64,000 nt of DNA from Ulvibacter sp. MAR_2010_11 (lineage in GTDB: Bacteria; Bacteroidota; Bacteroidia; Flavobacteriales; Flavobacteriaceae), in assembly GCF_002813135.1 (NCBI RefSeq), contig NZ_PHTY01000001.1, positions 1,917,501-1,981,500 of the forward strand, in the 5' to 3' direction. Below, in pieces: positions 20,217-61,900 of the stretch (its first letter is position 1; the number at the start of each line of letters is the position of its first letter). The translations under genes were made by a program, and so were the position numbers. Under the pieces are notes generated by a model. The model saw only the letters and a program-made list of their open reading frames with translations. It did no database searches and was not told the DNA's origin.

Positions 20217-20298
<82 letters not shown>

Positions 20299-20697: not shown

Positions 20698-20769
20698 GCC
20701 GGTGTAGCTCAGGGGTAGAGCGTTTCCTTGGTAAGGAAGAGGTCATGAGTTCAAATCTCATCATTGGCT
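20698..20769 (+). tRNA. tRNA-Thr (anticodon GGT)
   Basis: Acceptor arms GCCGGTG (20698-20704) and CATTGGC (20762-20768) pair with two G-T pairs. The anticodon stem holds loop TTGGTAA with anticodon GGT at 20730-20732. It lies 54 bases before tuf. Confidence 0.92.
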
Positions 20770-20823
20770 CAACACAGTACAAAATTGAACACTTTTATAT
20801 AACTAAGATTAAATTAATACAAA

Positions 20824-22011: not shown

Positions 22012-22037
22012 ACAAAGTCAATTAATAAAAAGGTAAA

Positions 22038-22061
22038 GGTGTTCCGATTTTTCGGAACGCC
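22038..22061 (+). terminator. Hairpin after tuf (possible terminator)
   Basis: GGTGTTCCG (22038-22046) pairs with CGGAACGCC (22053-22061) around a T-rich loop. The tail is only moderately T-rich, so termination may be partial, letting some transcription reach tRNA-Trp and secE. Confidence 0.55.
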
Positions 22062-22083
22062 TTGACTTTTATAACGGGGTTTA

Positions 22084-22103
22084 CCTGCCTGCCGGCAGGC
22101 AGG
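22084..22103. repeat. Perfect 20-base GC-rich palindrome
   Basis: The 20 bases read CCTGCCTGCC followed by its exact inverse complement. It stands in an otherwise AT-rich spacer between the tuf hairpin and tRNA-Trp. It is not followed by T residues, so it is more likely a repetitive element than a terminator. Confidence 0.7.
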
Positions 22104-22147
22104 GCTGAGCGAATAGCATAGGTTTTGTGGGTGATCCGGAAAAGTAA

Positions 22148-22220
22148 ACGGGTTTAGCTCAGTTGGTAGAGCACTGGTCTCCAAAACCAGGTGTCGTGAG
22201 TTCGAGTCTCGCAACCCGTG
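22148..22220 (+). tRNA. tRNA-Trp (anticodon CCA)
   Basis: Acceptor arms ACGGGTT and AACCCGT (ending 22219) with discriminator G, D arm GCTCAGTTGGTAGAGC, anticodon stem CTGGT/ACCAG with loop CTCCAAA (anticodon CCA), and T loop TTCGAGT. tRNA-Trp just before secE-nusG is a common bacterial order. Confidence 0.95.
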
Positions 22221-38951: not shown

Positions 38952-38989
38952 TATACGTAGAAACACGTATATACTTTTCCTACAAAAAA
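38952..38989 (+). promoter_or_regulatory. Upstream control box of adhesin operon 1
   Basis: It contains TATACGTA and ACACGTATATA, which form an imperfect inverted repeat ATACGT/ACGTAT separated by six bases, followed by TTTTCCTACAAAAAA. The same order of blocks occurs at 55366-55403 before the second adhesin operon. It is probably a binding site for a dimeric regulator. Confidence 0.6.
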
Positions 38990-39042
38990 CCTAGATAAAA
39001 AGCAAAATTTAACGTAGTTCAGCGATTTTTTATTACAGTTGG

Positions 39043-39098
39043 ACTAATAGTTGAATTTTTGTAAGACTTTAACATTTTTTCCTACGTATATTTGATAT
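39043..39098 (+). promoter_or_regulatory. Promoter block of adhesin operon 1
   Basis: These 56 bases match 55457-55512 at 55 positions. The block starts ACTAATAGTTGA, contains TTTTTGTAAG and ends with the -7 element TATATTTG at 39087-39094. Transcription should start near 39101. Confidence 0.75.
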
Positions 39099-39165
39099 GA
39101 AATACACAAAATCAGTGCTGTTGGGGCATTCGTTTTTTACATTGATACACATAAAAAATATAGAT

Positions 39166-39684
39166 ATGAAAGTTTCCAAATCTGTTTCCTCTCGAGGTAT
39201 GTCAAAACTATTTTTCACATCGGTCCTCATGACTTTTTTAGTTTGTATGTTCTCCTTGCAAAGTTTTGCCCAAAACTGTAACTCAAAAATGGTTGTCTCT
39301 CACGATAGAGATTTACAATCGGCCATAGTGAGTCAGCCTGCTAAATTTCAAATGGAGCTTACTAATAATTCAGCGACTACACAAACATATACAATGGAGT
39401 ACGTCAATTCGGCGAAGACTTTTACCTATGAGGGTAAAGCTCCTTCACGGTTAAGTGCTAACAATAACTTAAATACAACCATTTCCTATAATGGTTCTGT
39501 AGTGAACAGTATAAGCGTACCTCCACATTCGACAGTTTCATTTCACGCAATTGTATCAATTCCGGAAGGGACTCCAATAAATAAGTGGGGTGTCATCGAA
39601 TTAAAAGCAAAAAACAGCAAATGCTCCGAAGGGACTCTTTCATCTCTTTTAAAGGTGTTGAGCAGGGATCCATCTGAAAACTAA
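39166..39684 (+). CDS. Small secreted protein leading adhesin operon 1
   Basis: This protein is 172 residues from the ATG at 39166; the frame is open from 39097, but that ATG is at or before the predicted transcription start, so it is unlikely to be used. A long signal peptide (hydrophobic part about 16-31) ends near SFAQ. The mature part (about 140 residues) is beta-rich, with a Cys near each end (QNCNSK and SKCSEG), and resembles an immunoglobulin/fibronectin-like sandwich (VSQPAKFQMELTNNSATTQ, SVPPHSTVSFHAIVSIPEGT). I do not recognise the family. It lies 59 bases before the giant adhesin gene and is probably a subunit or helper of that adhesin. Confidence 0.6.
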   Translation: MKVSKSVSSRGMSKLFFTSVLMTFLVCMFSLQSFAQNCNSKMVVSHDRDLQSAIVSQPAKFQMELTNNSATTQTYTMEYVNSAKTFTYEGKAPSRLSANNNLNTTISYNGSVVNSISVPPHSTVSFHAIVSIPEGTPINKWGVIELKAKNSKCSEGTLSSLLKVLSRDPSEN

Positions 39685-39743
39685 TATTAGGACTTGGTCC
39701 AAAAGGATAAGACTTACTAGGTTTCAACCTAAAAACTCATTTT

Positions 39744-42700
39744 ATGAAAAAGCAACTACCTTCCAAAATTAATAATTACATAAAAGCAGTTTTTTTACTA
39801 CTTGCTTTTTTTGTATTTAACACTGCACCGCTTTTTGCCCAGACTATAACACTAAACAAGACTGCGGTAGCAAGTAATGTTTGTAATCAATTCGATATTT
39901 CCTTGACGGTTACCGGGAATCCACCTCCACTAGCACAGGATGTGATTCTTGTAATTGACCGGTCCGGAAGTATGGGAGGAGATCCTATTATGCACGCGAA
40001 AAACGCGGCGGTCTCTTTCGTCAATAATATATTCGCACCGGCGAACAACCCTACAGGAAATAATAGAGTGGGGATTGTCTCTTATTCCACTTCAGGAACA
40101 CTTGAAATTGGTTTGCGAAACTCAACATTTCAAGCTGCAATTATAGCTGAAATCAATAGTCTGGTAGCTTCCGGTGGAACAAACATTGCAAGTGCCATGG
40201 ATGTTGCCGACAATGAGATGACAGCCAATGGAGTTTTTAATTGCGCTACAGGTAGAAGTATTTTGCTTTTAACCGATGGTGTTACTAACAGAAGATTAAA
40301 CGGAAGTACTTGTAGCGGAACCCCTTCGCCACCATTCCCGGCTGGGAATTCTGCATGTATGGATGATGCTATTAGTGAAGGGCAAGGAGCACAAACTACC
40401 CCCATAGGAAATCCTTCAGTAATATATAATCAAAAAATATTCTCGGTTGGACTTTTTGGAGATATCTCCGGAAATGCTCAAGCAGCTGCAACTTATACAC
40501 TGGATCAAATTCAGAACGGGGGCCTTTTCACAACCGAAGCAGCGGCCGATTTAACCGGAATTTATAATACTATTCTAGGACAATTAGCACTGGCAGCAAA
40601 GGACGCCATTGTAACAGATGCATTAGGAACTGGATTCCAAATGGTATCCGGTACGCTTAGCGACCCTGTAAATGCATCATACAATAGCGGTACTAATACC
40701 ATTACCTGGGATCTAGGCGATGTTTCTAATGAGACACGAACACTTACATATCGTATTGCAGCGGTTGGAATGCAAGGTTGTGGAATACAAAATTCCGGAT
40801 CGAGTCAAATGTCATTCATTAATGCTTCCTGTAATCCGCAAGTACTACCATTTCCTAACCCACAGATTTGTGTGCCGTGTCCGATTATTTCAGACCCAGT
40901 TATAGATCAGGTAGATTGTACAAAGACTATAAATTATTCGGCTTCATTTAATCCGGGAGACTGTACACCTTTCTCAGTAGGATTTGTTTGGGAATTCTTC
41001 CTTAATAACACTTCTGTTGGTACTGTTTCAGGGAATACTATAGGAGATCTCTCAGGAGCTTTTACGTATACGGGAGCTAATCCGTTTCAAGGAGACTTCA
41101 GAGCCGAACTAACCTATAATGGTACTTATAATAATAATTGTAATCTACCTCCGGTGACTGTAGATTCTGATATTCAAATTTATTTACCACCTAATGCACC
41201 GGTGAGTGGCGGAAATCAAACGGCTTGTGCGGCTACACCAATTCAAACATTAACTGCTGTCGCTACTGTTTTGCCAAACCAAAGTGTTGTCTGGTATGAT
41301 ATGGCAAATGGCGGGAATGTTGTTTCTCCTACCTTAAACACTATAGGTAGTATTACATATTGGGCTGAAACAGTTGATAATACCAGTGGATGTTCAAGTT
41401 TATCTAGAACTCCGGTATCATTAACTCTGTATAATTGTGCAATTAATATTGAAAAAACTGCGAGTCCTAACGACCCTGCAAATTGTAACCCAATTGCTCC
41501 GGGACAACCCATAAATTATACATTTACCGTTACTAACATTGGAAACGTTGCAATTACCAATGTGGAAGTAAATGACCCATTAATCGATCCGGTAAATCCT
41601 ATTCCCGGTCCGGCAAGTGGAGATACCAATAATAATAATGCATTAGACCTTAATGAAGTTTGGACTTACAATGCATCTTATATAGTACAGCAATCTGATA
41701 TTATAACCGGTCAGGTAGTAAATACTGCCGATGTGGACGGGACTGTAACAGGTTCTTCTTCCTCTTATAATGTTCATGACGAAGATTCTGAAACCGTGAT
41801 TTTATGTCAAAATGCTGAAATTTCCATAACGAAAGCAAGTACGAGTGCTACAGGTAATTGTATCAATTTTACTGAAAATGATATCATAAGTTACACATTC
41901 GTCGTAACCAATGAAGGTGATGTTGATATTTCAAATGTTGTAGTAACAGATCCAATTTTGGGTGGTGTTATTGCAGGCCCTGCTAGTGGTGATACTAACA
42001 ATAATGGAGTGCTGAATGTTGGTGAAGTATGGAATTATGCCGCAAATTATTCAGTTACTCAATTGGATATTGATAATGGTTCGGTTGTAAACACTTCCGA
42101 GGTAAATGGTACAACAGCTTTAGGTCCGGTAAATGATCCTAGTAATCAAGTTACCGTATTAATTTGTCAAACTCCGGACATCGCCATTGTAAAAACAAAC
42201 GATCAAATACCCGGTCAAAACAACTGTGTTGATTTGTCAGAGGGTGATACTGTGACCTATACTTTTACAGTAACCAACGAAGGAAACCTATCCATTGACA
42301 ATGTGGTTGTAACAGATCCACTGGTTGGACTATCTGTTATTGCCGGTCCAACGGGTGATACAGGAGCCGACGGCATCTTAGGCTTAACAGAGGTTTGGAC
42401 TTATACCGCTACTTATGTGGTAACTCAAGATGATGTTGATGCAGGTCAGATAACCAATCAGGCGACAGTCAATGGACTGGCAATGAACCCTGCGGACACT
42501 CCGGTGAGTGATCTATCAGGATCTACTACCACTACGGACGATGCGACGGTGATTGTAATTTGTCAAACTCCGGACATCGCTATTGTAAAAACAAACGATC
42601 AAATACCCGGTCAAAACAACTGTGTTGATTTGTCAGAGGGTGATACTGTGACCTATACTTTTACAGTAACCAACGAAGGAAACCTATCCATTGACAATGT

Positions 42701-45700
42701 GGTTGTAACAGATCCACTGGTTGGACTATCTGTTATTGCCGGTCCAACGGGTGATACAGGAGCCGACGGCATCTTAGGCTTAACAGAGGTTTGGACTTAT
42801 ACTGCAACTTATGTGGTAACTCAAGATGATGTTGATGCAGGTCAGATAACCAATCAGGCGACAGTCAATGGACTGGCAATGAACCCTGCGGACACTCCGG
42901 TGAGTGATCTATCAGGATCTACTACCACTACGGACGATGCGACGGTGATTGTAATTTGTCAAACTCCGGACATCGCTATTGTAAAAACAAACGATCAAAT
43001 ACCCGGTCAAAACAACTGTGTTGATTTGTCAGAGGGTGATACTGTGACCTATACCTTTACAGTAACCAACGAAGGAAACCTATCCATTGACAATGTGGTT
43101 GTAACAGATCCACTGGTTGGACTATCTGTTATTGCCGGTCCAACGGGTGATACAGGAGCCGACGGCATCTTAGGCTTAACAGAGGTTTGGACTTATACCG
43201 CTACTTATGTGGTAACACAGGATGATGTTGATGCAGGTCAGATAACCAATCAGGCGACAGTCAATGGACTGGCAATGAACCCTGCGAACACTCCGGTGAG
43301 TGATCTATCAGGATCTACTACCACTACGGACGATGCAACGGTGATTGTAATTTGTCAAACTCCGGACATCGCTATTGTAAAAACAAACGATCAAATACCC
43401 GGTCAAAACAACTGTGTTGATTTGTCAGAGGGTGATACTGTGACCTATACTTTTACAGTAACCAACGAAGGAAACCTATCCATTGACAATGTGGTTGTAA
43501 CAGATCCACTGGTTGGACTATCTGTTATTGCCGGTCCAACGGGTGATACAGGAGCCGACGGCATCTTAGGCTTAACAGAGGTTTGGACTTATACCGCTAC
43601 TTATGTGGTAACACAGGATGATGTTGATGCAGGTCAGATAACCAATCAGGCGACAGTCAATGGACTGGCAATGAACCCTGCGGACACTCCGGTGAGTGAT
43701 CTATCAGGATCTACTACCACTACGGACGATGCGACGGTGATTGTAATTTGTCAAACTCCGGACATCGCTATTGTAAAAACAAACGATCAAATACCCGGTC
43801 AAAACAACTGTGTTGATTTGTCAGAGGGTGATACTGTGACCTATACCTTTACAGTAACCAACGAAGGAAACCTATCCATTGACAATGTGGTTGTAACAGA
43901 TCCACTGGTTGGACTATCTGTTATTGCCGGTCCAACGGGTGATACAGGAGCCGACGGAATCTTAGGCTTAACAGAGGTTTGGACTTATACTGCAACTTAT
44001 GTGGTAACTCAGGATGATGTTGATGCAGGTCAGATAACCAATCAGGCGACAGTCAATGGACTGGCAATGAACCCTGCGGACACTCCGGTGAGTGATCTAT
44101 CAGGATCTACTACCACTACGGACGATGCGACGGTGATTGTAATTTGTCAAACTCCGGACATCGCTATTGTAAAAACAAACGATCAAATACCCGGTCAAAA
44201 CAACTGTGTTGACTTGTCAGAGGGTGATACTGTGACCTATACCTTTACAGTAACCAACGAAGGAAACCTATCCATTGACAATGTGGTTGTAACAGATCCG
44301 CTGGTTGGACTATCTGTTATTGCCGGTCCAACGGGTGATACTGGAGCCGACGGAATCTTAGGCTTAACAGAGGTTTGGACCTATACAGCTACTTATGTGG
44401 TAACACAGGATGATGTTGATGCAGGTCAGATAACCAATCAGGCGACAGTCAATGGACTGGCAATGAACCCTGCGGACACTCCGGTGAGTGATCTATCAGG
44501 ATCTACTACCACTACGGACGATGCGACGGTGATTGTAATTTGTCAAACTCCGGACATCGCTATTGTAAAAACAAACGATCAAATACCCGGTCAAAACAAC
44601 TGTGTTGACTTGTCAGAGGGTGATACTGTGACCTATACCTTTACAGTAACCAACGAAGGAAACCTATCCATTGACAATGTGGTTGTAACAGATCCGCTGG
44701 TTGGACTATCTGTTATTGCCGGTCCAACGGGTGATACAGGAGCCGACGGCATCTTAGGCTTAACAGAGGTTTGGACCTATACCGCTACTTATGTGGTAAC
44801 ACAGGATGATGTTGATGCAGGTCAGATAACCAATCAGGCGACAGTCAATGGACTGGCAATGAACCCTGCGAACACTCCGGTGAGTGATCTATCAGGATCT
44901 ACTACCACTACGGACGATGCAACGGTGATTGTAATTTGTCAAACTCCGGACATCGCTATTGTAAAAACAAACGATCAAATACCCGGTCAAAACAACTGTG
45001 TTGACTTGTCAGAGGGTGATACTGTGACCTATACCTTTACAGTAACCAACGAAGGAAACCTATCCATTGACAATGTGGTTGTAACAGATCCACTGGTTGG
45101 ACTATCTGTTATTGCCGGTCCAACGGGTGATACAGGAGCCGACGGCATCTTAGGCTTAACAGAGGTTTGGACCTATACTGCAACTTATGTGGTAACACAG
45201 GATGATGTTGATGCAGGTCAGATAACCAATCAGGCGACAGTCAATGGACTGGCAATGAACCCTGCGAACACTCCGGTGAGTGATCTATCAGGATCTACTA
45301 CCACTACGGACGATGCAACGGTGATTGTAATTTGTCAAACTCCGGACATCGCTATTGTAAAAACAAACGATCAAATACCCGGTCAAAACAACTGTGTTGA
45401 TTTGTCAGAGGGTGATACTGTTACTTATACCTTTACAGTAACCAACGAAGGAAATCTATCCATTGACAATGTGGTTGTAACAGATCCACTGGTTGGACTA
45501 TCTGTTATTGCCGGTCCAACGGGTGATACAGGAGCCGACGGAATCTTAGGCTTAACAGAGGTTTGGACTTATACTGCAACTTATGTGGTAACTCAGGATG
45601 ATGTTGATGCAGGTCAGATAACCAATCAGGCGACAGTCAATGGACTGGCAATGAACCCTGCGGACACTCCGGTGAGTGATCTATCAGGATCTACTACCAC

Positions 45701-48700
45701 TACGGACGATGCGACGGTGATTGTAATTTGTCAAACTCCGGACATCGCTATTGTAAAAACAAACGATCAAATACCCGGTCAAAACAACTGTGTTGACTTG
45801 TCAGAGGGTGATACTGTGACCTATACCTTTACAGTAACCAACGAAGGAAACCTATCCATTGACAATGTGGTTGTAACAGATCCGCTGGTTGGACTATCTG
45901 TTATTGCCGGTCCAACGGGTGATACAGGAGCCGACGGCATCTTAGGCTTAACAGAGGTTTGGACCTATACCGCTACTTATGTGGTAACACAGGATGATGT
46001 TGATGCAGGTCAGATAACCAATCAGGCGACAGTCAATGGACTGGCAATGAATCCTGCGGACACTCCGGTGAGTGATCTATCAGGATCTACTACCACTACG
46101 GACGATGCAACGGTGATTGTAATTTGTCAAACTCCGGACATCGCTATTGTAAAAACAAACGATCAAATACCCGGTCAAAACAACTGTGTTGACTTATCAG
46201 AGGGTGATACTGTGACTTATACCTTTACAGTAACCAACGAAGGAAACCTATCCATTGACAATGTGGTTGTAACAGATCCACTGGTTGGACTATCTGTTAT
46301 TGCCGGTCCAACGGGTGATACTGGAGCCGACGGAATCTTAGGCTTAACAGAGGTTTGGACCTATACAGCTACTTATGTGGTAACACAGGATGATGTTGAT
46401 GCAGGTCAGATAACCAATCAGGCGACAGTCAATGGACTGGCAATGAATCCTGCGAACACTCCGGTGAGTGATCTATCAGGATCTACTACCACTACGGACG
46501 ATGCAACGGTGATTGTAATTTGTCAAACTCCGGACATCGCAATAGTTAAGACACATAATCAGACGCCAACAGGTGGTAATAATTGTATAGATTTAAGTGT
46601 TGGACAAGATATATCATATACTTTCACAGTGACCAACGAGGGCAATCTATCGATTGATAATGTGGTTGTAACCGATCCGTTACCTGGATTATCTGCGATA
46701 ACTTTTATTGGAGGAGATGCCGATAATGATCAAGTTTTAGATTTAAATGAAATATGGACATATAATGCGGTATACACTGTTACTCAGGATGATATAGATT
46801 TAGGTAGTATTACAAATCAAGCTACCGTTAACGGTACGGCAATGAACCCTGCGAACACTCCGGTGAGTGATATTTCTGGAAGCACGGTAACAACCGATGA
46901 TCCTACGGTAATAATAATATGTCAGAACCCTGCAATTGCAATTGTAAAAGAGGCGAGTTATGACGACGGAGGCGATTGTTCTGATCCTGGAGAATTGATT
47001 AACTATACATTCACAGTGACCAATGAAGGTAATGTGAGTCTATCAAATATTGTAGTAACCGATCCATTATTAGGTGGCGTAGTTGCTGGTCCCGATTCAG
47101 GAGATACCGACAACGACGGAGAATTGGATGTAACTGAGGTGTGGATTTACACAGGAAGTTATGCCATCACTCAGGATGACATTGACAATGGAGAGGTAAT
47201 CAACCAGGCTACTGTTACAGGTATTGCACCGGATCAGTCTCAGGTAAGTGATCTTTCAGGATCTACTACCACTACGGATGATGAAACCACTACAACACTA
47301 TGTCAGGAACCAATTATTGCAATTGTAAAAGAGGCGAGTTATGACGATGGTGGCGATTGTTCCGATCCTGGAGAATTGATTAACTATACATTCACAGTAA
47401 CCAATGAAGGTAATGTGAGTCTATCGAATATTGTAGTAACCGATCCATTATTAGGTGGCGTAGTTGCCGGTCCCGATTCAGGAGATACCGACAATGACGG
47501 AGAATTGGATGTAACCGAGGTGTGGATTTACACAGGAAGTTATGCCATCACTCAGGATGACATCGACAATGGAGAGGTAATCAACCAGGCGACTGTTACA
47601 GGTATTGCACCGGATCAGTCTCAGGTAAGTGATCTTTCAGGATCTACTACCGCTACGGATGATGAAACCACTACAACACTATGTCAGGAACCAATTATTG
47701 CAATTGTAAAAGAGGCGAGTTATGACGATGGTGGCGATTGTTCCGATCCGGGAGAATTGATTAACTATACATTCACAGTAACCAATGAAGGTAATGTGAG
47801 TTTATCGAATATTGTAGTAACCGATCCATTATTAGGTGGCGTAGTTGCCGGTCCCGATTCAGGAGATACCGACAATGACGGAGAATTGGATGTAACCGAG
47901 GTGTGGATTTACACAGGAAGTTATGCCATCACTCAGGATGACATCGACAATGGAGAGGTAATCAACCAGGCTACTGTTACAGGTATTGCACCGGATCAGT
48001 CTCAGGTAAGTGATCTTTCAGGATCTACTACCACTACGGATGATGAAACCACTACAACACTATGTCAGGAACCAATTATTGCAATTGTAAAAGAGGCGAG
48101 CTATGACGACGGTGGCGATTGTTCCGATCCGGGAGAATTGATTAACTATACATTCACAGTGACCAATGAAGGTAATGTGAGTTTATCGAATATTGTAGTA
48201 ACCGATCCATTATTAGGTGGCGTAGTTGCCGGTCCCGATTCAGGAGATACCGACAATGACGGAGAATTGGATGTAACCGAGGTGTGGATTTACACAGGAA
48301 GTTATGCCATCACTCAGGATGACATCGACAATGGAGAGGTAATCAACCAGGCGACTGTTACAGGTATTGCACCGGATCAGTCTCAGGTAAGTGATCTTTC
48401 AGGATCTACTACCACTACGGATGATGAAACCACTACAACACTATGTCAGGAACCAATTATTGCAATTGTAAAAGAGGCGAGCTATGACGACGGTGGCGAT
48501 TGTTCCGATCCGGGAGAATTGATTAACTATACATTCACAGTGACCAATGAAGGTAATGTGAGTTTATCGAATATTGTAGTAACCGATCCATTATTAGGTG
48601 GCGTAGTTGCCGGTCCCGATTCAGGAGATACCGACAATGACGGAGAATTGGATGTAACTGAGGTGTGGATTTACACAGGAAGTTATGCCATCACTCAGGA

Positions 48701-51700
48701 TGACATCGACAATGGAGAGGTAATCAACCAGGCGACTGTTACAGGTATTGCACCGGATCAGTCTCAGGTAAGTGATCTTTCAGGATCTACTACCACTACG
48801 GATGATGAAACTACTACAACACTATGTCAGGAACCAATTATTGCAATTGTAAAAGAGGCGAGTTATGACGATGGTGGCGATTGTTCCGATCCGGGAGAAT
48901 TGATTAACTATACATTCACAGTAACCAATGAAGGTAATGTGAGTCTATCGAATATTGTAGTAACCGATCCATTATTAGGTGGCGTAGTTGCCGGTCCCGA
49001 TTCAGGAGATACCGACAATGACGGAGAATTGGATGTAACCGAGGTGTGGATTTACACAGGAAGTTATGCCATCACTCAGGATGACATCGACAATGGAGAG
49101 GTAATCAACCAGGCGACTGTTACAGGTATTGCACCGGATCAGTCTCAGGTAAGTGATCTTTCAGGTTCTACTACCACTACGGATGATGAAACTACTACAA
49201 CACTATGTCAGGAACCAATTATTGCAATTGTAAAAGAGGCGAGCTATGACGACGGTGGCGATTGTTCCGATCCGGGAGAATTGATTAACTATACATTCAC
49301 AGTGACCAATGAAGGTAATGTGAGTTTATCGAATATTGTAGTAACCGATCCATTATTAGGTGGCGTAGTTGCCGGTCCCGATTCAGGAGATACCGACAAT
49401 GACGGAGAATTGGATGTAACCGAGGTGTGGATTTACACAGGAAGTTATGCCATCACTCAGGATGACATCGACAATGGAGAGGTAATCAACCAGGCTACTG
49501 TTACAGGTATTGCACCGGATCAGTCTCAGGTAAGTGATCTTTCAGGATCTACTACCACTACGGATGATGAAACCACTACAACACTATGTCAGGAACCAAT
49601 TATTGCAATTGTAAAAGAGGCGAGCTATGACGACGGTGGCGATTGTTCCGATCCGGGAGAATTGATTAACTATACATTCACAGTGACCAATGAAGGTAAT
49701 GTGAGTTTATCGAATATTGTAGTAACCGATCCATTATTAGGTGGCGTAGTTGCCGGTCCCGATTCAGGAGATACCGACAATGACGGAGAATTGGATGTAA
49801 CTGAGGTGTGGATTTACACAGGAAGTTATGCCATCACTCAGGATGACATCGACAATGGAGAGGTAATCAACCAGGCGACTGTTACAGGTATTGCACCGGA
49901 TCAGTCTCAGGTAAGTGATCTTTCAGGATCTACTACCACTACGGATGATGAAACTACTACAACACTATGTCAGGAACCAATTATTGCAATTGTAAAAGAG
50001 GCGAGTTATGACGATGGTGGCGATTGTTCCGATCCGGGAGAATTGATTAACTATACATTCACAGTAACCAATGAAGGTAATGTGAGTCTATCGAATATTG
50101 TAGTAACCGATCCATTATTAGGTGGCGTAGTTGCCGGTCCCGATTCAGGAGATACCGACAATGACGGAGAATTGGATGTAACCGAGGTGTGGATTTACAC
50201 AGGAAGTTATGCCATCACTCAGGATGACATCGACAATGGAGAGGTAATCAACCAGGCGACTGTTACAGGTATTGCACCGGATCAGTCTCAGGTAAGTGAT
50301 CTTTCAGGTTCTACTACCACTACGGATGATGAAACTACTACAACACTATGTCAGAATCCAGCTATTGCGATTATTAAAACCGGATTATTTGTAGATGTAG
50401 ACGGTGATAAGTGTGCAGATGTAGGGGAATTAATAGACTACACGTTTACAGTAACTAATGAAGGCAATGTAAGCTTATCCAGCATCGAAGTGAATGACCC
50501 ACTATTAGGTGGTCAATTACCGGGTCCTGATTCAGGAGATACAGATAACGATGGAGAATTGGATGTAACTGAAACTTGGATTTACACGGGAAGTTATGCT
50601 ATCACTCAGATTGATATTGATAATGGAGAAGTTGTAAATCAGGCAGTGGCAAAAGGTGCTAGTCCTTTAGGAGTGACAGTTTCAGATCTTTCAGATGACA
50701 ATAGTATTCTTGAAGACGATCCAACGGTAACAGACATTTGTCAGGAACCTGTGATTGCTATTATAAAAACAGGATTATTTATAGATGAAGATGGCGATAA
50801 GTGTGCCGATGTAGGTGAAATGATCGATTATACTTTCACAGTAACTAACCTCGGAAACGTAAGCCTATCAAATATAGTGGTGGATGATCCATTATTAGGA
50901 GGCCCAATAGCCGGTCCTGATTCAGGAGATACCGACAATGACGGAGAATTGGATGTAACTGAAACGTGGATTTACACTGCAAGTTATGCCATTACTCAGG
51001 TCGATATAGACGCAGGACAAGTGATTAATCAGGCTACCGCGACAGGTACAGCACCGGATCAAAGTACCGTAAGTGACCTATCTGATAATGATAGTGAATT
51101 TGAAGACGATCCTACCGAAACAGATCTTTGTCAGGAGCCTGTAATTGCAATTATTAAAGTTGGAGTATTTAATGACGAAAACGGAAATGGTTGTGCGGAT
51201 GAAGGCGAATCAATTGACTATACATTCACTGTGACAAACGAAGGAAATGTTAGTTTGACTAATATCATAGTTGATGATCCATTACTAGGAGGGCCAATTG
51301 CCGGACCTGATAGTGGTGATACCGATAACAACGGTGAATTAGGAGAAACCGAAGCTTGGATTTATTCCGGCACCTATATCATTAGCCAGTCAGATATTGA
51401 CAATGGAAATGTTACCAACCAGGCCACTGCTTCAGGTACTGCCGATGGTGTCACTGTAACAGATTTATCAGATCCAAATAGCGTTAATGGTGATAGTCCT
51501 ACGATTACAGACTTGTGTCAAGATCCATCAATGTCTGTTACTAAGTCAGGAGTTTTCAACGACGACAATGGTGATCAAATACCACAACCGGGAGAGACCA
51601 TTAGTTATTTCTTTTCGGTTACCAACACAGGTAATGTTACCTTGTATAACATCACCCTGAGTGATGAGTTACCGGGTATTGTACTGGAAGGTGGTCCTAT

Positions 51701-52256
51701 TGCACAATTGGATCCGGGTGAGGTTGACGACAGCACGTTCACTGCTACCTATGCCATTACAGAGGCTGATATTGCCGCAGGCGAGGTAATCAACCAGGCC
51801 ATTGGAACGGGAGAGACTATAGGCGGCGACGAGGTAAGTGATACCTCCGATGATCCAAATGATTTGACCAATGTTGATCCAGATGGCGATGGTGAGCCTG
51901 ATGATCCTACAGTTACGGTAATACCGAATGTATTACCTGCTAATTTTGAGATTTTCAATGGTGTTACCCCAGATGGTGATGGCTTGAATGATTACTTCCA
52001 GATAGATGGAATAGAGGATTATCCTATCAACAATGTTAAGATCTTCAATCGTTGGGGAGTACTTGTATGGGAGACCGATGGTTACGGAGTAAATGGTAAT
52101 GTCTTTAGAGGTGTTTCCAGTGGTAGATCTACCGTTAGAGAGTCTAAGGAGTTGCCAACGGGTACGTACTTCTATATTTTGACCTTCCCTGGTGGTAACC
52201 CTGGTGATAATCCGGGTGAGACTAATTATTCAGGATACTTATATATAAATAGATAG
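39744..52256 (+). CDS. Giant T9SS-exported adhesin with VWA domain and about 27 DUF11-like modules
   Basis: This 4170-residue protein has a signal peptide (to about 33) and a von Willebrand A domain (about 65-300) with an intact MIDAS (Asp72-x-Ser74-x-Ser76 in DRSGSMGG, and DGVTNRR later). A Cys-rich Ig-like zone (about 380-560) follows. Then come about 27 modules with the core [21 protein letters not shown] and a late T/YxITQDDIDxGxIxNQAxV. The C-terminus is a type B gliding-motility sorting domain ([18 protein letters not shown], about 4070-4090; [12 protein letters not shown]; the end YSGYLYINR), the signal for export and anchoring by the type IX secretion system. The VWA and the Ca-like motifs fit metal-dependent adhesion. 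PorP/SprF and OmpA genes follow in the same orientation. Confidence 0.85.
42171..46526 (+). repeat. Tandem array of 11 near-identical 396-bp units (type A)
   Basis: Unit starts are 42171, 42567, 42963, 43359, 43755, 44151, 44547, 44943, 45339, 45735 and 46131; a twelfth, diverged unit begins at 46527. Each unit encodes 132 residues starting [15 protein letters not shown]. Units differ mostly by silent changes (for example ACC/ACT, GGC/GGA, GAT/GAC) and by one residue, D or N, in NPADTP/NPANTP. Silent variants recur in non-neighbouring units, which shows shuffling by recombination. Confidence 0.95.
46938..50348 (+). repeat. Tandem array of 9 near-identical 381-bp units (type B)
   Basis: Unit starts are 46938, 47319, 47700, 48081, 48462, 48843, 49224, 49605 and 49986. 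Each unit encodes 127 residues, including [31 protein letters not shown] and [18 protein letters not shown]. Units 4-6 and 7-9 share the same order of silent variants, which points to duplication of a three-unit block. After the array come three diverged modules and a last one. Confidence 0.95.
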
Positions 52257-52270
52257 CAAATCAAAAAACT

Positions 52271-52293
52271 CCCGGGAGGGGCAACCTCCCGGG
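52271..52293 (+). promoter_or_regulatory. GC-rich hairpin between adhesin and PorP/SprF genes
   Basis: CCCGGGAGG (52271-52279) pairs perfectly with CCTCCCGGG (52285-52293), with a five-base loop. No T tract follows and the next ATG is 19 bases away, so it is more likely an RNA-stability or translation element than a terminator. Confidence 0.6.
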
Positions 52294-52311
52294 GTTATAA
52301 AATATGTAACG

Positions 52312-53265
52312 ATGAAACACAGTTATTTTACACTCATAGTTTTGATTTTACTCGGTATTTTTTCGAGTAATGCTCAGCAGGATCCTCAGTACACCCAGTA
52401 TATGTACAATACTCAGGTTGTTAACCCTGCGTATGCGGGTTCTCGGGAGGCTTTAAGTTTTGGATTGTTGTACCGTACCCAGTGGGTTGGTTTTGAGGGG
52501 GCTCCTAAGACGGGTACCTTCACGGTAAATTCTCCCATCGGGAGTTTAGACAACATGGGCTTGGGTCTGTCTATTGTACGGGATGAAATTGGTCCTTCGA
52601 TTGAGTCGAATGTGAATATTGATTATTCCTATAGTATCAACACCTCGGATGAGGGTAAGGTTTCCTTTGGATTGAAGGCGGGGTTGGATATTTTGGATGT
52701 TGATTTCACCAAGCTTAATATCGCCGATCAGGGTGATGTTTTCGAGAACAATATCGACAATAAGCTTCAGCCTCAGATAGGAGCGGGAGTGTATTACAAT
52801 ACGGAGAAGTTTTATGCCGGATTATCGGTACCCAACTTTTTAACCACCAAGCATTTTGACAAGTCTACCTTGGAGGATATTCAAAATGGTGGTTTTAATG
52901 GATCAGTGACAGCAGCAGAGCGTTTGCATTATTTTTTAATAGCGGGTTATGTCTTTGATGTGAGTGAGAATTTAAAGTTTAAGCCTGCAACCTTGGTAAA
53001 GGCTGTAAGTGGATCTCCCTTACAGTGGGATGTTTCTGCCAACTTTCTTTTGTATGAGAAGGTGACCTTGGGAGCTGCCTACAGATGGAGTGCTGCCATG
53101 AGTGCTTTGGTTGGCTTTCAGGCTACCGATGAGATTTTTATTGGCTTTGGCTACGACTATCAGACTACCGACATAGAATCCTATAGTGATGGTTCTTATG
53201 AGATTATGTTACGCTTTGATTTATTCAAGAAACCGGAACGTGTGTTAACACCACGATTCTTTTAA
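52312..53265 (+). CDS. PorP/SprF family type IX secretion membrane protein
   Basis: This 317-residue protein has a signal peptide (cleaved near SSNAQ at about 21) and then the family hallmark QDPQYTQYMYNTQVVNPAYAGSREALS, with the typical YRTQWVGFEGAPKT and a C-terminal barrel that ends VLTPRFF. PorP/SprF proteins are outer-membrane barrels that serve the export and surface attachment of T9SS type B substrates, notably SprB-like adhesins. Its position directly after the giant gene, in the same orientation, suggests it is dedicated to that adhesin. It is 14 bases before the OmpA gene. Confidence 0.92.
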   Translation: MKHSYFTLIVLILLGIFSSNAQQDPQYTQYMYNTQVVNPAYAGSREALSFGLLYRTQWVGFEGAPKTGTFTVNSPIGSLDNMGLGLSIVRDEIGPSIESNVNIDYSYSINTSDEGKVSFGLKAGLDILDVDFTKLNIADQGDVFENNIDNKLQPQIGAGVYYNTEKFYAGLSVPNFLTTKHFDKSTLEDIQNGGFNGSVTAAERLHYFLIAGYVFDVSENLKFKPATLVKAVSGSPLQWDVSANFLLYEKVTLGAAYRWSAAMSALVGFQATDEIFIGFGYDYQTTDIESYSDGSYEIMLRFDLFKKPERVLTPRFF

Positions 53266-53279
53266 AAAACATTTGGGGC

Positions 53280-55187
53280 ATGAAGACATTTTTACAAAAA
53301 GTATTTCTTTTAGCACTAGTACTGTTAGGTACTAGTGTCTCTTTTTCTCAGAAAAAGCAAGTTGAAAAGGCAAACAAGGAATTTGACAAGTATGCATATA
53401 TAGATGCTCGGGATATTTATCTCAAAGTAGTAGAGGACGGTTATACCTCTGCCCAGATCTATAAGAACTTAGGAGATACCTATTATTGGAACAGCGACTA
53501 CGACAATGCTGCCAAATGGTATTCCAGGTTAATTTCGGAGTTTCCACAGGAAACCGAGGTTAACTATTATTACCGTGCTGCTCAGAGTCAGAAGAGTTTG
53601 GGCAATGCCGATAAGTCCAAGGAATATATGGATATGTATATTTCCAAGGGCGGTGATCCGGGGATTGTACGCGCTACGGCTACGGACTTTTTGGAATACG
53701 AGGTAGTGTTGGAGAAGGTCTCTGTCAATACGGCGTATTCCGATTTTGGACCTGCCTATTATATGGACAAGCTGGTGTATGCCTCTTCCTCTAATACTTC
53801 GGAGGGCAGCAAGATCGCTCAGTGGAACGAGCAGCCTTTTTTAGATTTGTATGAGGCCGATATGGACGGTGAGGGGAAACTCTCCAATGCGAGTTCATTG
53901 AGTGGAGATGTCAATACTCCGTATCACGAATCGACCCCTACCTTTACCAAGGACGGGAACACCATTTATTTTACACGTAACAATTATATAGACGGCAAGA
54001 AGGGCAAGGATAAGAACAAGACCATTCGATTAAAGCTGTATAAAGCCACCAAGAGTGGTGATAACTATTGGACCAATGTTGTAGAGCTACCCTTTAACTC
54101 TAAGGAATACTCTGTGGCACACCCTGCTCTTAGTTTGGATGAGAAGCGTTTGTATTTTTCATCAGACATGCCGGGTACCATTGGCATGAGTGATTTATGG
54201 TATGTTGATATTTTAGATAATGATAGCTATGGAGAGCCTGTTAACCTGGGAACATCGATCAATACCGAAGCCAGAGAGTCGTTTCCTTTTATCAGTGAGA
54301 AGAACAATTTGTATTTCTCCAGTGATGGTAGAGGGGGATTAGGAGGTTACGATATTTTCAGTACCCCGTTGAACCCTCAGGGCAGACCCGGGAAGATTAC
54401 CAACTTAGGCGAGCCTGCCAATAGCAGTCAGGATGACTTTGGCTTTATTATCAAAGAAGAGAAACGCATGGGTTATATGTCTTCCAACCGAGAAGGCGCC
54501 AAGGGCAGTATCGACGATGAGATTTACCTTGTACAAGAAAAATGTGAGATTGTGATTACCGGAACGGTATTCGACCAGGACAGTAAGGAATTACTGCCGG
54601 GAGCAGAGGTATTACTATTGGATAGTAACAACAAGATAGTAGACAGCCAAATAGTGGGAGAGACGGCTTCCTATAGCTTTAATGCCGACTGTGAGAAGCA
54701 GTATTCAGTGAGAGGTAGCAAGACTCAGTATGCACCCTATGAGAAGGTCTTACAGACACCCGATAAGAGTGGCACGGTGGAGATACCCATTCCGTTGAAA
54801 CTGGTAGACCCATGTCCGCCAAACGATTTGGGATGTCGACTGAAATTACAGCCTATCTATTTTGATTTCGATCGTTATAACATTCGTCCCGATGCGGCCA
54901 TTGAATTGGCTAAGATATTGGCCGCTATGCGACAGTATCCTGAGCTTATCATCCATATCGAGTCGCATACCGACTCACGCGGTAACGACAAGTACAACGA
55001 GTCGTTGTCTGACAAACGAGCACAATCCACCTTACAATGGTTGGTAGACAAGGGCATTGCCAAGAGCAGGCTAACTGCAAAGGGTTATGGCGAATATAAA
55101 TTGACCAACAAGTGTGACGATGGCGTGGAATGTACCGAAGAGGAACATCAGTTAAACCGTCGTTCGATGTTTATCATACAGAATTAG
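53280..55187 (+). CDS. OmpA family protein with TPR/PD40 repeats (PorE-like)
   Basis: This 635-residue envelope protein has a signal peptide (to about 24), a TPR-like helical part (about 25-135), a beta-propeller of PD40/WD40-like repeats (about 155-425, with LYFSSDMPGTIGMSDLWYV and YFSSDGRGGLGGYDIF), a CarboxypepD_reg-like domain (about 430-515) and a C-terminal OmpA peptidoglycan-binding domain (about 520-630, HIESHTDSRGNDKYNESLSDKRA and GYGE). This domain order is that of PorE/SprE-type partners which couple T9SS complexes to peptidoglycan. PorP/SprF plus OmpA pairs after giant adhesins are a standard flavobacterial arrangement. It ends with a strong terminator. Confidence 0.88.
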   Translation: MKTFLQKVFLLALVLLGTSVSFSQKKQVEKANKEFDKYAYIDARDIYLKVVEDGYTSAQIYKNLGDTYYWNSDYDNAAKWYSRLISEFPQETEVNYYYRAAQSQKSLGNADKSKEYMDMYISKGGDPGIVRATATDFLEYEVVLEKVSVNTAYSDFGPAYYMDKLVYASSSNTSEGSKIAQWNEQPFLDLYEADMDGEGKLSNASSLSGDVNTPYHESTPTFTKDGNTIYFTRNNYIDGKKGKDKNKTIRLKLYKATKSGDNYWTNVVELPFNSKEYSVAHPALSLDEKRLYFSSDMPGTIGMSDLWYVDILDNDSYGEPVNLGTSINTEARESFPFISEKNNLYFSSDGRGGLGGYDIFSTPLNPQGRPGKITNLGEPANSSQDDFGFIIKEEKRMGYMSSNREGAKGSIDDEIYLVQEKCEIVITGTVFDQDSKELLPGAEVLLLDSNNKIVDSQIVGETASYSFNADCEKQYSVRGSKTQYAPYEKVLQTPDKSGTVEIPIPLKLVDPCPPNDLGCRLKLQPIYFDFDRYNIRPDAAIELAKILAAMRQYPELIIHIESHTDSRGNDKYNESLSDKRAQSTLQWLVDKGIAKSRLTAKGYGEYKLTNKCDDGVECTEEEHQLNRRSMFIIQN

Positions 55188-55207
55188 ACTAACCAATTTT
55201 TTCAACC

Positions 55208-55250
55208 TTTAAAAGCGTTCATTCTTACATTGAACGCTTTTTGTTTTTTT
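55208..55250 (+). terminator. Terminator of adhesin operon 1
   Basis: AAAGCGTTCA pairs with TGAACGCTTT and is followed by a long T-rich tract. Confidence 0.88.
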
Positions 55251-55365
55251 TGTTTATTTTGTTTTTTTTCAGTCATGAACTTAAATTGTCGTCGATTCAG
55301 TTTTTTTAACATTTAAAAAACCATTCTTACAAATATCCTTGCTATTAGCCTAATTGTGACGCTAG

Positions 55366-55403
55366 TATACGTATAAACACGTAGTTGTATTTCCTACAAA
55401 AAA
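55366..55403 (+). promoter_or_regulatory. Upstream control box of adhesin operon 2
   Basis: It has the same order of elements as 38952-38989: TATACGTA, A-rich spacer, CACGTA, then TTTCCTACAAAAAA. Confidence 0.6.
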
Positions 55404-55456
55404 AATAGTTAATAACTTCAATATTGTGTTGTTCAACGAGAATATTTTACGCTTCA

Positions 55457-55512
55457 ACTAATAGTTGACTTTTTGTAAGACTTTAACATTTTTTCCTACG
55501 TATATTTGATAT
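55457..55512 (+). promoter_or_regulatory. Promoter block of adhesin operon 2
   Basis: It is 55 of 56 bases identical to 39043-39098, including the -7 element TATATTTG at 55501-55508. Confidence 0.75.
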
Positions 55513-55969: not shown

Positions 55970-58900
55970 ATGCAAAACATTACTTATTCTATCCTGCATA
56001 AGAGATTTTTTAAATATGTAAGTATTCTTACATTTATATTCTCTTCGATGTTAGTTTATGGACAGGATCCATTGCCAACAATAGTTCCAAATACAAATAG
56101 AGGTTTGCCTTTTTTGTATGCATTACCCGATAATGGGAATGATCTTTTTTCTGTGGCGCCAGACCCTACCTCTGACCCATTGCCAACTCCGGCTATCCAA
56201 TCTACGGATAGAACCTTTAATGGAGAAGGCTCCGGATTTAGAGCAAGTAACAGAAGGGTGTATGCATTTGCGAACGATCACGATTTATATGAAGTGAACC
56301 CTGCGAATGGGAATTCGACATTAAAGGTGGACAATATGTTTACCGGCGTTGTTCAGGGTGTAGAATTTTACTTGAATAATGTCACGGGAGCTGAAGTGAT
56401 GTTCGTTATTGTTGATCCAAGCGGTGATGGCACTGGTGGTACAAAGTTGTATGCCTATAACCCAAATAATAATTGGGCGTCTTATGCGGGTTATCCAAAA
56501 ACATTATCGGGAGCCATTAATAAGGCTGACGGAATTGCATGGAATCCTGTAAATGGGGACTTTTATGTTCAAAATGATGATGAAGTAGATTTTTATTTTA
56601 TAAACGTTACCAACGGTAATACAACCTTTGCGTTTAGCACAGAGTTCGAAATTGATGGCGAAGGAATTGGTTTTGCCGCCGATGGAAAATTATATATTGA
56701 AGACGAAGGAGATAATTTAACAGGAGGAGACAGACGTATTTACGAAGTAAATTTATCGAATGGTGACTTAACCGCAGTAGCTAAATTAGGTGGTAGTTCA
56801 GACGTTGAAGGAATTATGGGCAACGTAGGTGTGAGAGATGATGGAGGAGATATTCCTAACTCTTACGGTTGGGCAGCGCACCAATTACCGGTATTACAAT
56901 CGGACCCTATTACTATTTACCTGGGGACTGTAGCGCCGGATTCTGAAGATCCTTTTACTACTGTAAACGGAGGCTTTGGAGATGATGCTACCGGTATAGA
57001 CGATGAAGACGGTGTGAAATTAAATGGTGACTTACTCGACAATAAGCAACTTAATGCAGGTTCTGCATATACGTTAACTGTTAAGACAAATGGTAACGGT
57101 GTTTTAAGTGCCTGGATAGATTGGAATGGTGATGGTGATTTCGACAGCAACGAAAAAGTGGCAAACAATATAGCACCGTCTGGCAATAACATTAATTTAA
57201 ACATAAATGTACCCAGTAGTGCAGCAATGGGTGTTACCTATGCGCGATTCAGATATTCATCTCAACACAATCTTGCGGCTAGTTATAGTGAGGCCCCTGA
57301 TGGGGAAGTTGAAGATTATAAAATTAGTATTGTAAATACGCCAATTGCTAGAGAATGCGGTTGTGCGCCGTTTTATAATAATTCGAATTTTGTAAACCCC
57401 GTGAAAATTGCCGGATCCAACCTTCAGGTAGGAGCAGTTTACAGATTCTCAAATGTATTCCCTGGTAATCCACATGGCAATGTGCTAGATGCGCTGGTAA
57501 AAATTGAAGCCTTTAACAATGGAGCTTCATTATTAGATATCGATGTTACAGGAACAGGACTTAACGAGGCTTTTCAACCCAGAATCAATAGCACAAATGG
57601 GAATGATCAAAGTGTTGAGTTTAGTGTCACCTTTGTAACCGGAGGTGGAAACTACGGAGATGAAGTTGTCATCTCATTCTTCGGAACACCTTTAGATATT
57701 GATGGTGATGGAAACAGTACACGTGAATATGCAGAAATTAGTCTGCCTGATGCTTACTTCTTAGCTTCGAATCCAAAAATCGATATTTCGAGAGGAGCAA
57801 CCTATGTAAGAGGTGAAGCCAGAAATACAGAAACCGCTCCTGGTGGTGATGTTTCTCTGGATCCAAGATGGACCTATAGTAATTATTTCGAAAACAAATC
57901 ATCCTTACGTTATAAGATAGGGAAGATTGACGGCAATGATGATCGATATTATTCATTAGATATGGATAATGCGAATTACAACGATCCCAATTCGGTTTTA
58001 ATTACCTATCCTGTTATCTGCGGAAAAGTGACCGACCAAGGTGGTGATCCTTTAGTGGGGGTTGAAATAGATGTCACCGGTTCAGACGGAAGCTCTCAAA
58101 CCGTAACTACCGGAGCAAATGGTAGCTATAAAGCTGTTGCGGCAATTCCTGAAGCATTGGTAGATGTTACCTATGAAATTCGTGAGAACGATCTTCCCGG
58201 ATACGAATCAATTTCGGATGTTGACGGTGCTAACGATAATTTAATTACGCGTGTAATTAATTTAATGTCTACCTGCGGAAATGATTTCGTCGATGGAGTA
58301 GACACGCCCGATGGATGGAACTTTGAGTGTGGTGACGATAAGGTGGTCGATGAATACGGATATAACGCAAATTGTAATTTAACTACAGTTGCTTCAATAC
58401 CTAACCCGGCCAACGTATACCAATACGTAGTTGAAATTGTATACAAAGGATCAAATCCTGGTCAGAGTATTACGTTTACAGATTCTTCAAACAATAGTCA
58501 AACACTCTATAGATCAGTACCGGTTGGTACCAGTTCAAATATTTGGGTGTATAGAGGACTATTTACCGGAAATACAAGCACAATTACGTATACCAATAAT
58601 TCTAGTAAATGCCAATTGCAATCTCTGGTGGTGTATGCCTTCAGAAATGTGCCGGATGCATCTTCTAGCTCAGGTGTATTTACAAGTAGAAGCGGGGTTA
58701 ATGATGTTCAAACCATCACTATTGACATTCCTGCATTTACAGGACCAAGAAATTTAACTATTGAAGCTCCGATTTCCGAATTAACAGCTGATGGAAGATA
58801 TCTGTTGTTAAAAGCTGAATCGGGTGGTGTTTCCGATCAAGTATTCATATATGGACCTGATGCATCACTACCGGGAGGTACTTGCTGTCTAGCCATACCT

Positions 58901-61900
58901 ACGCTTACGCTGAATGCAGTTCCGGGTGCAGCAACGCAGGTTGTAATCACCGTGGATACCCGAAATAATCAAAACGGACAAACTGTAAATGGTCAGTCTT
59001 GGGTTATTGCAAGTGGTGTTAATGTAGATGGTGATTGTTACGAAGAATTAGAATTAGTTCTGGAGTCTAAAACAAATATATTGTGTAATGGCGCAAGTAC
59101 AGGTTCTATTACCGTAATGGCTACAGGAGGCGTACCTCCTTATATGTACAGCCTTAACGGTGGAACACCTCAAGCGTCTCCTACCTTTAATAATTTACCG
59201 GCAGGAGTATATACAATTGGCGTAACAGACACTCTTGGAAATTCAGATTCTATAAGTGTTACGCTTACACAGCCGGAACCATTGAGCATACAAATTACTA
59301 AAATCAATGCGACGGCAACTGGAGGTTGTCTCAACGGACAAGCGACGGCGAATCCTTCGGGAGGCGTAGGTCCTTATACCTATCAGTGGAGTGCTAGTGC
59401 CGGAAGTCAGACTACACAAACTGCAATTAACTTAGCAGCCGGAACACACACTGTTGTGGTAACCGATGCCAATGGTTGTACGCTTCAGCAAGGAGTTGTA
59501 ATAGATTGTGTTCCAAACTGCGATGCTACTATTAATGTGGACAATGTTACTCACGTACTTTGTACAGGAGATATGACCGGAAGTGCTACAGTTAGTGCAA
59601 GCTCTGTGTTAAATCCCGGTGCTACTTTTACCTTTACATGGAATACAGTGCCCGTACAAGTTGATGCCGGTGTTACCTCTAGTACTGTTTCAGGATTAGG
59701 CGCAGGTGTGTATACTGTAAGTGTAACTATAGACGGTACCTTGTGTCAACCGGTACAACAAAGTGTAACAATTACACAGCCTTCTAATGCTTTGAACGTG
59801 ACAGCTACCTCGACCGATGAAACCGGACCAACAACCGGTGACGGAACGGCTACCGCTAATCCAACAGGAGGGACACCACCGTATACATATGTATGGAGTC
59901 CCGGAGGGCAAACAACACAAACAATTACCGGACTTAGTGCCGGAACATATACTGTAACTGTAACCGACGCTAATGGTTGTACAGCTACTGCTTCAACCAT
60001 TGTAAACCCTGGATCATGTAGAGATTTGGCAGCCAATGCTTCTTCAACACCGGTTTCATGTAATGGTGGTAATAATGGTACAGCGACAGTTGGAGTAACA
60101 GGTGGTTTAGGACCATTTAGTTATTCATGGAGTCCGGGTGGTCAGACTACTCAGACAATTACAGGATTAACAGCAGGAGCATATACTGTTACAGTAACCG
60201 ATCAATCAACGCTTTGTACAGCTTCTTCTACAACGACCGTTAATCAACCGGGAGCATTAAGCTCGGGAATTGCGGTTACGAATGTAGCGTGTTTCGGAGA
60301 GAATACGGGATCCTTAGATCTTACAGTAACAGGAGGAACTCCGCCTTATTCCTTCCTATGGAGTCCGGGTGGTGAAACAACCGAAGACTTATTCAACTTA
60401 GTGGCCGGAACGTATTCAGTCCTAATTACCGATGCCAATGGTTGTACCAAAACCGATAGTGCTACAGTAATGCAGCCTTCAGCAGAATTATCGCTAAACA
60501 TTATTTCTCAAACCGATATATTATGTAGTGCACCTAGCTCCGTGACAGTTGAAGCCGCAGGAGGAACACCTCCTTATCTATATGCTTTAGATGGTGGCGC
60601 ACCACAAGCTTCAGGAACTTTTACAAATCTGTCGCAAGGAATTCACAGTATTGTAGTTGTCGACGCAAACGGATGTGATGCTTCAGTTCAGGTTACAATT
60701 CTGAAAAATTGTACAGTGGCAGTTGATGATATCAACGACACATTCGTAAATATCCCTGTAGATGGAAACGTTCTTACAAACGACTTCGATTTGGAAGGCG
60801 ATACTCAAACAGTAACTACTACAACTGTAACTACAGTTCAAGGGGTAATTGTGAATATCGATCCTGTTACGGGAGCTTATACTTATACACCACCAGTTGA
60901 CTATATTGGCGAGGATACTTTTGAATATACTATTTGTGACGACGGAAACCCACAAGCTTGTGATAGCGCAGTGGTTTATATTGAAGTTGAACCAACAGAT
61001 TCCTCAGACAATGATCCACCGGTTGCAAATGCCGATACAAATACAACTCAGGTAAATGTACCGGTAGATGGAAATGTATTGCCGAACGATTACGATCCGG
61101 ACGGAGATCCAATTGTAGTAACAGCAAATACAAACCCTGCCAATGGTAGCGTAGTAATAAATCCTGATGGAAGTTATACATATACGCCTAATCCGAATTA
61201 TGTGGGTCAGGATACATTCCAATATACAATTTGTGATAACGGGACACCGCCACTTTGTGATACTGCAACGGTAACAATCCAAATTTTGGATACTACAGAC
61301 AATATTACAACTGCGGTTGATGATTCATACTTTACGCAAAGAAATACACCTATAAGCGCAAATGTATTGGATAACGATACAGATCCTGAAGGTGACAATC
61401 AAACTGTAGATATTGCTATCAGTCCTTCAAATGGGCCAAGTAATGGTACAGTGGTATTAAATGCCGATGGTACCTTTACGTATACACCTGATCCTGGATA
61501 TTTTGGACCAGACAGTTTTGTGTACTCAATCTTTGACGATGGTACTCCTGTGGCAACCGATTCTGCTACTGTAACCATATTAGTAAGTGCGTTTGTAAAC
61601 ACAACAGTTGCGGTCGACGATATCAATGATACGTTTGTAAATATTCCTGTAAGTGGAAATGTGCTTACCAACGATTTCGATTTGGAAGGGGATACCCAAA
61701 CAGTTACTACAACGACGGTAACTACAGTACAGGGAGTAATTGTGAATATTGACCCTGTTACAGGTGCTTATACCTATACTCCTCCACTTGATTATATTGG
61801 GGAAGATAGCTTCGAATATACTATTTGTGACGACGGAAGCCCTCAAGCTTGTGATAGTGCGGTAGTTTATATTGAAGTGGAGCCTATAGATACTTCAGAC

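Follow-up and report, generated by a model that had tools for sequence, protein, structure and literature searches.

Little is known about how type IX-secreted (T9SS) adhesins are controlled in Flavobacteriaceae or about regulation by small RNAs (sRNAs) in this family. Among the closest described systems, Fjoh_3952, Fjoh_3951 and Fjoh_3950 form an operon for a type B adhesin, a PorP/SprF protein and PorE that serves as an analogue for static anchoring (PMC12618676), and remFG-sprCDBF of Flavobacterium joins a giant T9SS adhesin to an SprF shuttle under complex promoter control (PMC9723704). Flavobacterial sigma-A promoters carry a -7 element of consensus TAnnTTTG, and SM6 ECF promoters with a CGT box drive T9SS genes in F. 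psychrophilum (PMC9723704). LytTR regulators bind two 9-bp direct repeats that are 11-13 bp apart and lie immediately upstream of the promoter (PMC6193735), and the multicopy sRNA LhrC, itself under an envelope-stress two-component system, hinders translation of the surface adhesin mRNA lapB (PMC4132741).

The two giant-adhesin operons in the 64-kb stretch of DNA analysed here (the window; Table 1) have the gene order and domains of the Fjoh_3952-3950 type, with a type B C-terminal domain, a PorP/SprF shuttle and a PorE-like anchor; they differ from it in being present as two copies with identical export genes and in sharing a common control region, which we did not find described for the Fjoh operons (PMC12618676). 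They resemble remFG-sprCDBF in their giant adhesin, their SprF shuttle and their complex promoter control, whereas the promoters there are of the sigma-54 and SM5 types and here a TAnnTTTG promoter goes together with a module of 142 bp, a gene for a PorE-like protein and a predicted pairing site in the leader (PMC9723704). Both giants score above the TIGR04131 cut-off for the type B sorting domain and match CHU_C, and a PorP/SprF gene lies directly downstream of each (PF11751, TIGR03519). The PorE-like protein matches NF052230 (T9SS_PorE) over its full length at 297 bits, against a cut-off of 600. A reading made from the sequence alone had assigned each operon a small exported protein and a giant, and had placed PorP/SprF and OmpA genes in operon 1 only, whereas such a pair follows both giants, that of operon 2 lying just beyond the window end. 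No Pfam family was found for the 104-aa small protein of operon 2. Five tRNA genes lie at window positions 19962-22220.

Table 1. Features of the two adhesin operons, their control regions and the associated RNA loci. Positions refer to the window unless preceded by G000:C1.
Feature	Position	Strand	Basis
Small exported protein, operon 1 (probable start 39166)	39166-39684	+	ORF; homologues in many block operons
Giant adhesin 1, 4170 aa: VWA, DUF11/DUF7507 repeats, T9SS type B C-terminal domain	39744-52256	+	Pfam, TIGR04131
PorP/SprF shuttle, operon 1	52312-53265	+	PF11751, TIGR03519
PorE-like protein (TPR, PD40, CarboxypepD_reg, OmpA), operon 1	53280-55187	+	full-length NF052230/NF053607 matches below cut-offs
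Small protein, operon 2, 104 aa	55650-55964	+	ORF
Giant adhesin 2, 3901 aa in all: GEVED, SprB, Big_9/cadherin repeats, type B C-terminal domain	55970-64000, continues past window end	+	
Tail module, 99-100% identical to operon 2	51501-55187; counterpart window-equivalent 66920-70606 (G000:C1:1984420-1988106)	+	
Control region, operon 1, full conserved module	38953-39094	+	profile R3 match, 100.3 bits
Control region, operon 2	55367-55508	+	profile R3 match, 100.7 bits
Palindrome TACGT-N6-ACGTA (16/18 bp; extended form ATACGT-N6-ACGTAT), CRP-like half-site spacing	38954-38969	.	strongest palindrome of module
TTCCTACAAAA box, upstream copy; inverted partner TTTTTTGTAAGA	38977-38987	+	invariant in 18-sequence alignment, partly by selection, since the pattern that gathered many sequences contained this box
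Direct repeat GTAGTTCAGCGA / ACAGTTGGACTA, period 21 bp, LytTR-like spacing	39014-39046	+	offset-21 self-similarity among best of 7,260 window pairs
TTTTTGTAAGAC box, inverted copy of TCCTACAAAAA box	39056-39067	+	top inverted self-similarity
56-bp block, copy 1	39043-39098	+	sequence match
56-bp block, copy 2	55457-55512	+	sequence match
-7 box TATATTTG, sigma-A type TAnnTTTG, operon 1	39087-39094	+	sequence; flavobacterial consensus (PMC9723704)
-7 box TATATTTG, operon 2; leader without GTTGGGGC	55501-55508	+	sequence
Leader hairpin AGTGC-TGTTGGG-GCATT, GTTGGGGC at 39120-39127, complementary to sRNA-A loop	39114-39130	+	complementarity, covariation
67-aa lipoprotein gene near clpX (L195/L303)	G000:C1:1560211-1560411	-	GTTGGGGC leader
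Candidate sRNAs, tandem pair	G000:C1 about 2254291-2254386 and 2254532-2254618	opposite to ECF sigma gene	covariation

By analogy with the Fjoh operons, the PorE-like partner suggests that both adhesins are statically anchored and do not serve gliding; gliding sprB operons are marked by the absence of a PorE gene, and both operons here have a PorE-like gene. The proposal that the twin operons form a single switchable surface-filament system thus finds no support, and we found no invertible or phase-variable element.

The sequence-only reading had drawn attention to a 56-bp block before each operon, differing at one position and ending in a perfect -7 element. Comparison of the two sites confirmed the single mismatch, and both copies do carry TATATTTG at their 3' end; no match of this kind is expected by chance (0 in 100 dinucleotide shuffles), and the 64-kb window holds no third copy. 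The accompanying statement that the surrounding spacers have diverged needs amending upstream, where 147 bp (38952-39098 and 55366-55512) align at 80% identity. The 56-bp block is the 3' end of a larger, almost gap-free control region of about 142 bp. Inside this module the strongest features are two pairs of boxes, one direct (TTTTTCCTAC) and one inverted (TCCTACAAAAAA/TTTTTTGTAAGA), together with a palindrome and a direct repeat at offset 21 (GTTCAACGA/GTTCAACTA); inverted TCCTACAAAA boxes are present as well. The TAnnTTTG box occurs in both copies and is conserved across the alignment. Upstream of it, the 21-bp period of the repeat fits the 11-13-bp spacing of LytTR-regulated promoters, and the sequence and position of the repeat differ from those of known LytTR sites (PMC6193735); the spacing possibly reflects a LytTR-type regulator and is a lead, not proof. 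We rejected a sigma-54 promoter in the leader (GG-N10-GC), whose spacing was inconsistent on inspection, and a divergent promoter at the upstream boxes, where no -7 box was seen.

Significant matches to the block occur at only two places in the whole 3.03-Mb Altibacter-group genome, and a more sensitive profile search returned exactly two module matches at E<=0.01; BLAST matches at E>0.1 elsewhere were mostly chance, with the exception of a cluster beside an ECF sigma gene. Across 397 family genomes, a sample that includes those used for building the profile, about 33 carry the module at E<1e-7. DNA and pattern searches, the chance level of the latter being set by matches to a reversed control pattern, found it in Altibacter, Aequorivita, Planktosalinus, Cochleicola, Aureitalea, Marixanthomonas, Halomarinibacterium, Ulvibacter and other genera; eight family-wide pattern matches (L084, L087, L088, L090, L092, L095-L097) had none of the other boxes and were discarded. 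The length from the upstream palindrome to the -7 box is nearly constant in 39 sequences, a regularity imposed in part by the search pattern. Twenty-two of the 36 blocks read stand before genes for homologues of proteins encoded in the window operons, and further blocks precede giants with SprB, Big_9 or CHU_C domains, the first genes being unclassified in a few cases and one contig ending before any gene; for some blocks, genes followed further downstream have the same C-terminus or export genes as the window operons. Comparison thereby establishes the module and its operon specificity: in every classifiable case it stands before giant type IX-secreted adhesin operons. Common control that goes beyond the -7 element, as had been proposed for the two operons, is strongly supported by a module that is unique in the genome to these sites, keeps its spacing over many genera and precedes adhesin operons only, wherever checked; the searches of this and related genomes did not find it before many unrelated genes.

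The weak block matches beside the ECF sigma gene located a pair of candidate sRNAs adjoining that gene, whose loops both read GCCCCAA and whose promoters both carry boxes similar to those of the adhesin module. In the stem of sRNA-B, 9 of 10 pairs show compensatory changes, 95.8% of cells are paired (74.8% when shuffled) and the GCCCCAA loop is invariant (17/17); in sRNA-A, 11 of 25 pairs show compensatory changes. At E<=0.01, 84 of the 397 family genomes have a match to sRNA-B, and in about 43 of these it reaches E<1e-4. Comparison likewise establishes this sRNA family, which appears to be previously undescribed and apparently is not in Rfam: the sRNA loci searched gave no match above the gathering threshold, and a search of the window gave tRNAs only. 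In reverse orientation, the adhesin block profile also matches an sRNA-A promoter region weakly, at 16.3 bits (L023:2200-2279, minus strand). A profile R2 match in an Aequorivita genome (L302) had no matching loop and was taken as false.

The sRNA-A loop is complementary to a hairpin in the operon-1 leader whose stem covaries across genomes. Folding energy of the leader is not better than that of shuffles in most genomes, so that covariation alone supports the hairpin, and its stem is too short for an intrinsic terminator. Of 38 copies of GTTGGGGC in the genome, 35 fall within ORFs; the three outside genes lie in the operon-1 leader, in sRNA-A (as the complement) and in the leader of a small lipoprotein gene. 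GTTGGGG leaders accompany the sRNA-A loop GCCCCAACT in 16 of 20 genomes, as opposed to 0 of 11 with altered loops, both traits having been defined after the data were seen. When leaders and sRNAs were permuted 20,000 times, none of the permutations was as high as the cognate pairings on run length and two were as low in duplex energy; when the comparison is restricted to genomes with the canonical loop, the flanks match no better than chance, 4589 of 20,000 permutations doing as well. Leader and loop are concordant in 29 of 32 cases on a weak tree built from one short protein (0 of 5000 in simulation), and well-supported branches hold only two independent pairs, never discordant. Two congeners of genus g180 show matched substitutions, GTTGGGGC occurring with GCCCCAAC and GTTAGGGC with GTCCTAAC (G197 and G377), and for G197 the leader had served to predict the sRNA loop ahead of its retrieval. 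In single lineages the complementary stretch is as long as 12-15 bp; in the window genome the operon-1 match to sRNA-A is only 8 bp (shuffle p=0.03). This correlation of loop and leader is established by comparison, and from it we infer that sRNA-A pairs with the operon-1 leader in vivo.

The pairing site itself shifts between operons: it is found in operon 1 and not in operon 2 of the window genome, in operon 2 in the genus of G239 and G406, and in both operons of A. lentus. Three genomes (G235, G251, G353), and in part a fourth (G399), have the block and intact sRNAs with no matching adhesin leader. The G235 and G251 leaders (L265, L276) form a hairpin with GTGCCCCCG instead of GTTGGGGC, and their GCCCCCG is complementary to CGGGGGC in the sRNA-A terminator loop. 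In two genomes whose sRNA-A loop has diverged (L226 and L215, from G320 and G445), the adhesin leader matches over 8 bp (GATAGTCT), possibly another co-change.

A second predicted target is the mRNA for the 67-aa lipoprotein, which places a TTGGGGC hairpin over its start codon. Homologues, some of them weak, were found in 20 of 22 genomes searched, and in 16 of 21 loci read a TGGGGC loop occurs at the start codon, which lies in or next to the hairpin. Its promoter holds a repeat similar to that of the adhesin module with a 20-bp period, and no convincing Pfam family was found for the protein. In one genome (L309, G325) a C-rich CTACCCCCGC replaces the G-run of the lipoprotein leader and matches the G-rich sRNA-A terminator loop.

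These same hairpins could be read otherwise: an RNA-binding protein or some other RNA might recognise the TTGGGGC leaders, and what we call the sRNA locus might be the leader of the ECF sigma mRNA with same-sense hairpins. On the ECF strand, hairpin loops do show same-sense CAGTTGGGGC and TTTGGGGC, as in the adhesin and lipoprotein leaders, and the matched substitutions would fit as well, since same-sense motifs would change together. The excess of G.U over A.C pairs in sRNA-B (29:2) fixes the transcribed strand, and together with the long T-runs after the sRNA hairpins and the conserved -7 boxes it points to a transcript opposite to the ECF gene; we regard this alternative as unlikely, although it survives best of those considered.

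How the two operons came to be so similar bears on another alternative. Their last 3.7 kb are 99.3% identical. Over the 2,876 bp of the two export genes, identity between operons is 100% in the window genome and also in A. lentus, but only 77.7% between the two species; identity within each genome with such divergence between species is most simply read as concerted evolution, and the export tails are apparently kept matched by gene conversion. In A. lentus the 56-bp copies of the two operons differ from each other at 8 positions, and in another congener at 11. Their near-identity is, on this comparison, special to the window genome, and what is conserved is the set of internal elements, not the whole 56-mer. 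In the window genome the two copies are closer to each other (1 difference) than to their orthologues (3-7), so local gene conversion may have contributed. The block might then be the mere core promoter of a duplicated operon, made nearly identical by recent gene conversion and in need of no special regulator, as the homogenised tails and the closeness of the two copies would allow. The upstream half of the module, however, is orthologue-like and not homogenised between operons, and the elements are kept over many genera at fixed spacing and extend far beyond a -7/-33 promoter, which leaves this reading a little less probable than the last.

Least probable is that the repeat and boxes are read by an alternative sigma factor of the ECF class, possibly the product of the gene beside the sRNAs, and not by an activator of a sigma-A promoter: the sRNA locus does adjoin an ECF sigma gene, but ECF promoters are not known to need 140 bp of fixed upstream sequence. 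TACGTA does resemble the CGT box of SM6 ECF promoters (PMC9723704), yet Aequorivita replaces CGT (CTGTATATTTG) and keeps TAnnTTTG.

The best explanation, and one we hold to be likely, is a regulated sigma-A adhesin promoter of about 142 bp taken together with an sRNA layer acting on the RNA. This promoter would be reserved for operons that encode giant type IX-secreted adhesins together with PorP/PorE, the block forming its promoter-proximal end. A putative regulator, possibly of LytTR type, would bind the 21-bp-period direct repeat and the TCCTACAAAA boxes that flank it; a need for an activator is suggested by the poor -33 region. In the second layer, two tandem trans-encoded sRNAs would expose GCCCCAA loops, and the loop of sRNA-A would pair with the loops of two hairpins, one close to the 5' end of the operon-1 mRNA and one over the lipoprotein start codon. 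Its effect would probably be to repress translation or mRNA stability, activation being only somewhat less likely. As operon 2 shares the promoter and is without the pairing site, the sRNA should distinguish the twin adhesins. More tentatively, and with less than even confidence, we suggest a two-layer selector in which the module turns on both adhesins and the co-evolving sRNA loop picks the mRNA that is translated, a choice rewired between lineages. The sRNA is not essential to the module, since Aequorivita has kept the block and its sRNA locus is missing. Where that locus is missing, Aequorivita leaders (L267, L271 and others) have a different conserved leader, GAAATGTTCAATTATTGCATTATC.

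If true, this arrangement would provide a conserved promoter module, an sRNA family apparently outside Rfam with targets backed by matched trans changes in loop and leader, and an example of sRNA-target co-evolution over many genera; the identical shuttle-anchor tails would offer a clear case of apparent gene conversion matching a secretion module behind divergent adhesin bodies. Among known sRNAs, the candidates can be set beside sX13 of Xanthomonas, whose stem-loops have C-rich apical loops and which represses mRNAs with GGGG near the translation start (PMC3771888): they too are structured RNAs with C-rich apical loops, and a G-run in the target leader is complementary to the loop. sX13 differs in being proteobacterial, with no sequence kinship found (no Rfam match here), and in having a large dispersed regulon, whereas few conserved targets are predicted here and their motifs change with the loop (PMC3771888). 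By this analogy, the candidates would work like C-rich-loop sRNAs such as sX13, and we do not claim membership of a common family. LhrC and lapB of Listeria, from their description, likewise pair a multicopy sRNA with a surface adhesin mRNA, but the LhrC sites are CU-rich and the adhesin is of another kind (PMC4132741). A further known sRNA for comparison is Rfp18 of F. psychrophilum, described as a flavobacterial sRNA with a predicted adhesin target (PMC9723704), as is proposed for the sRNA pair reported here.
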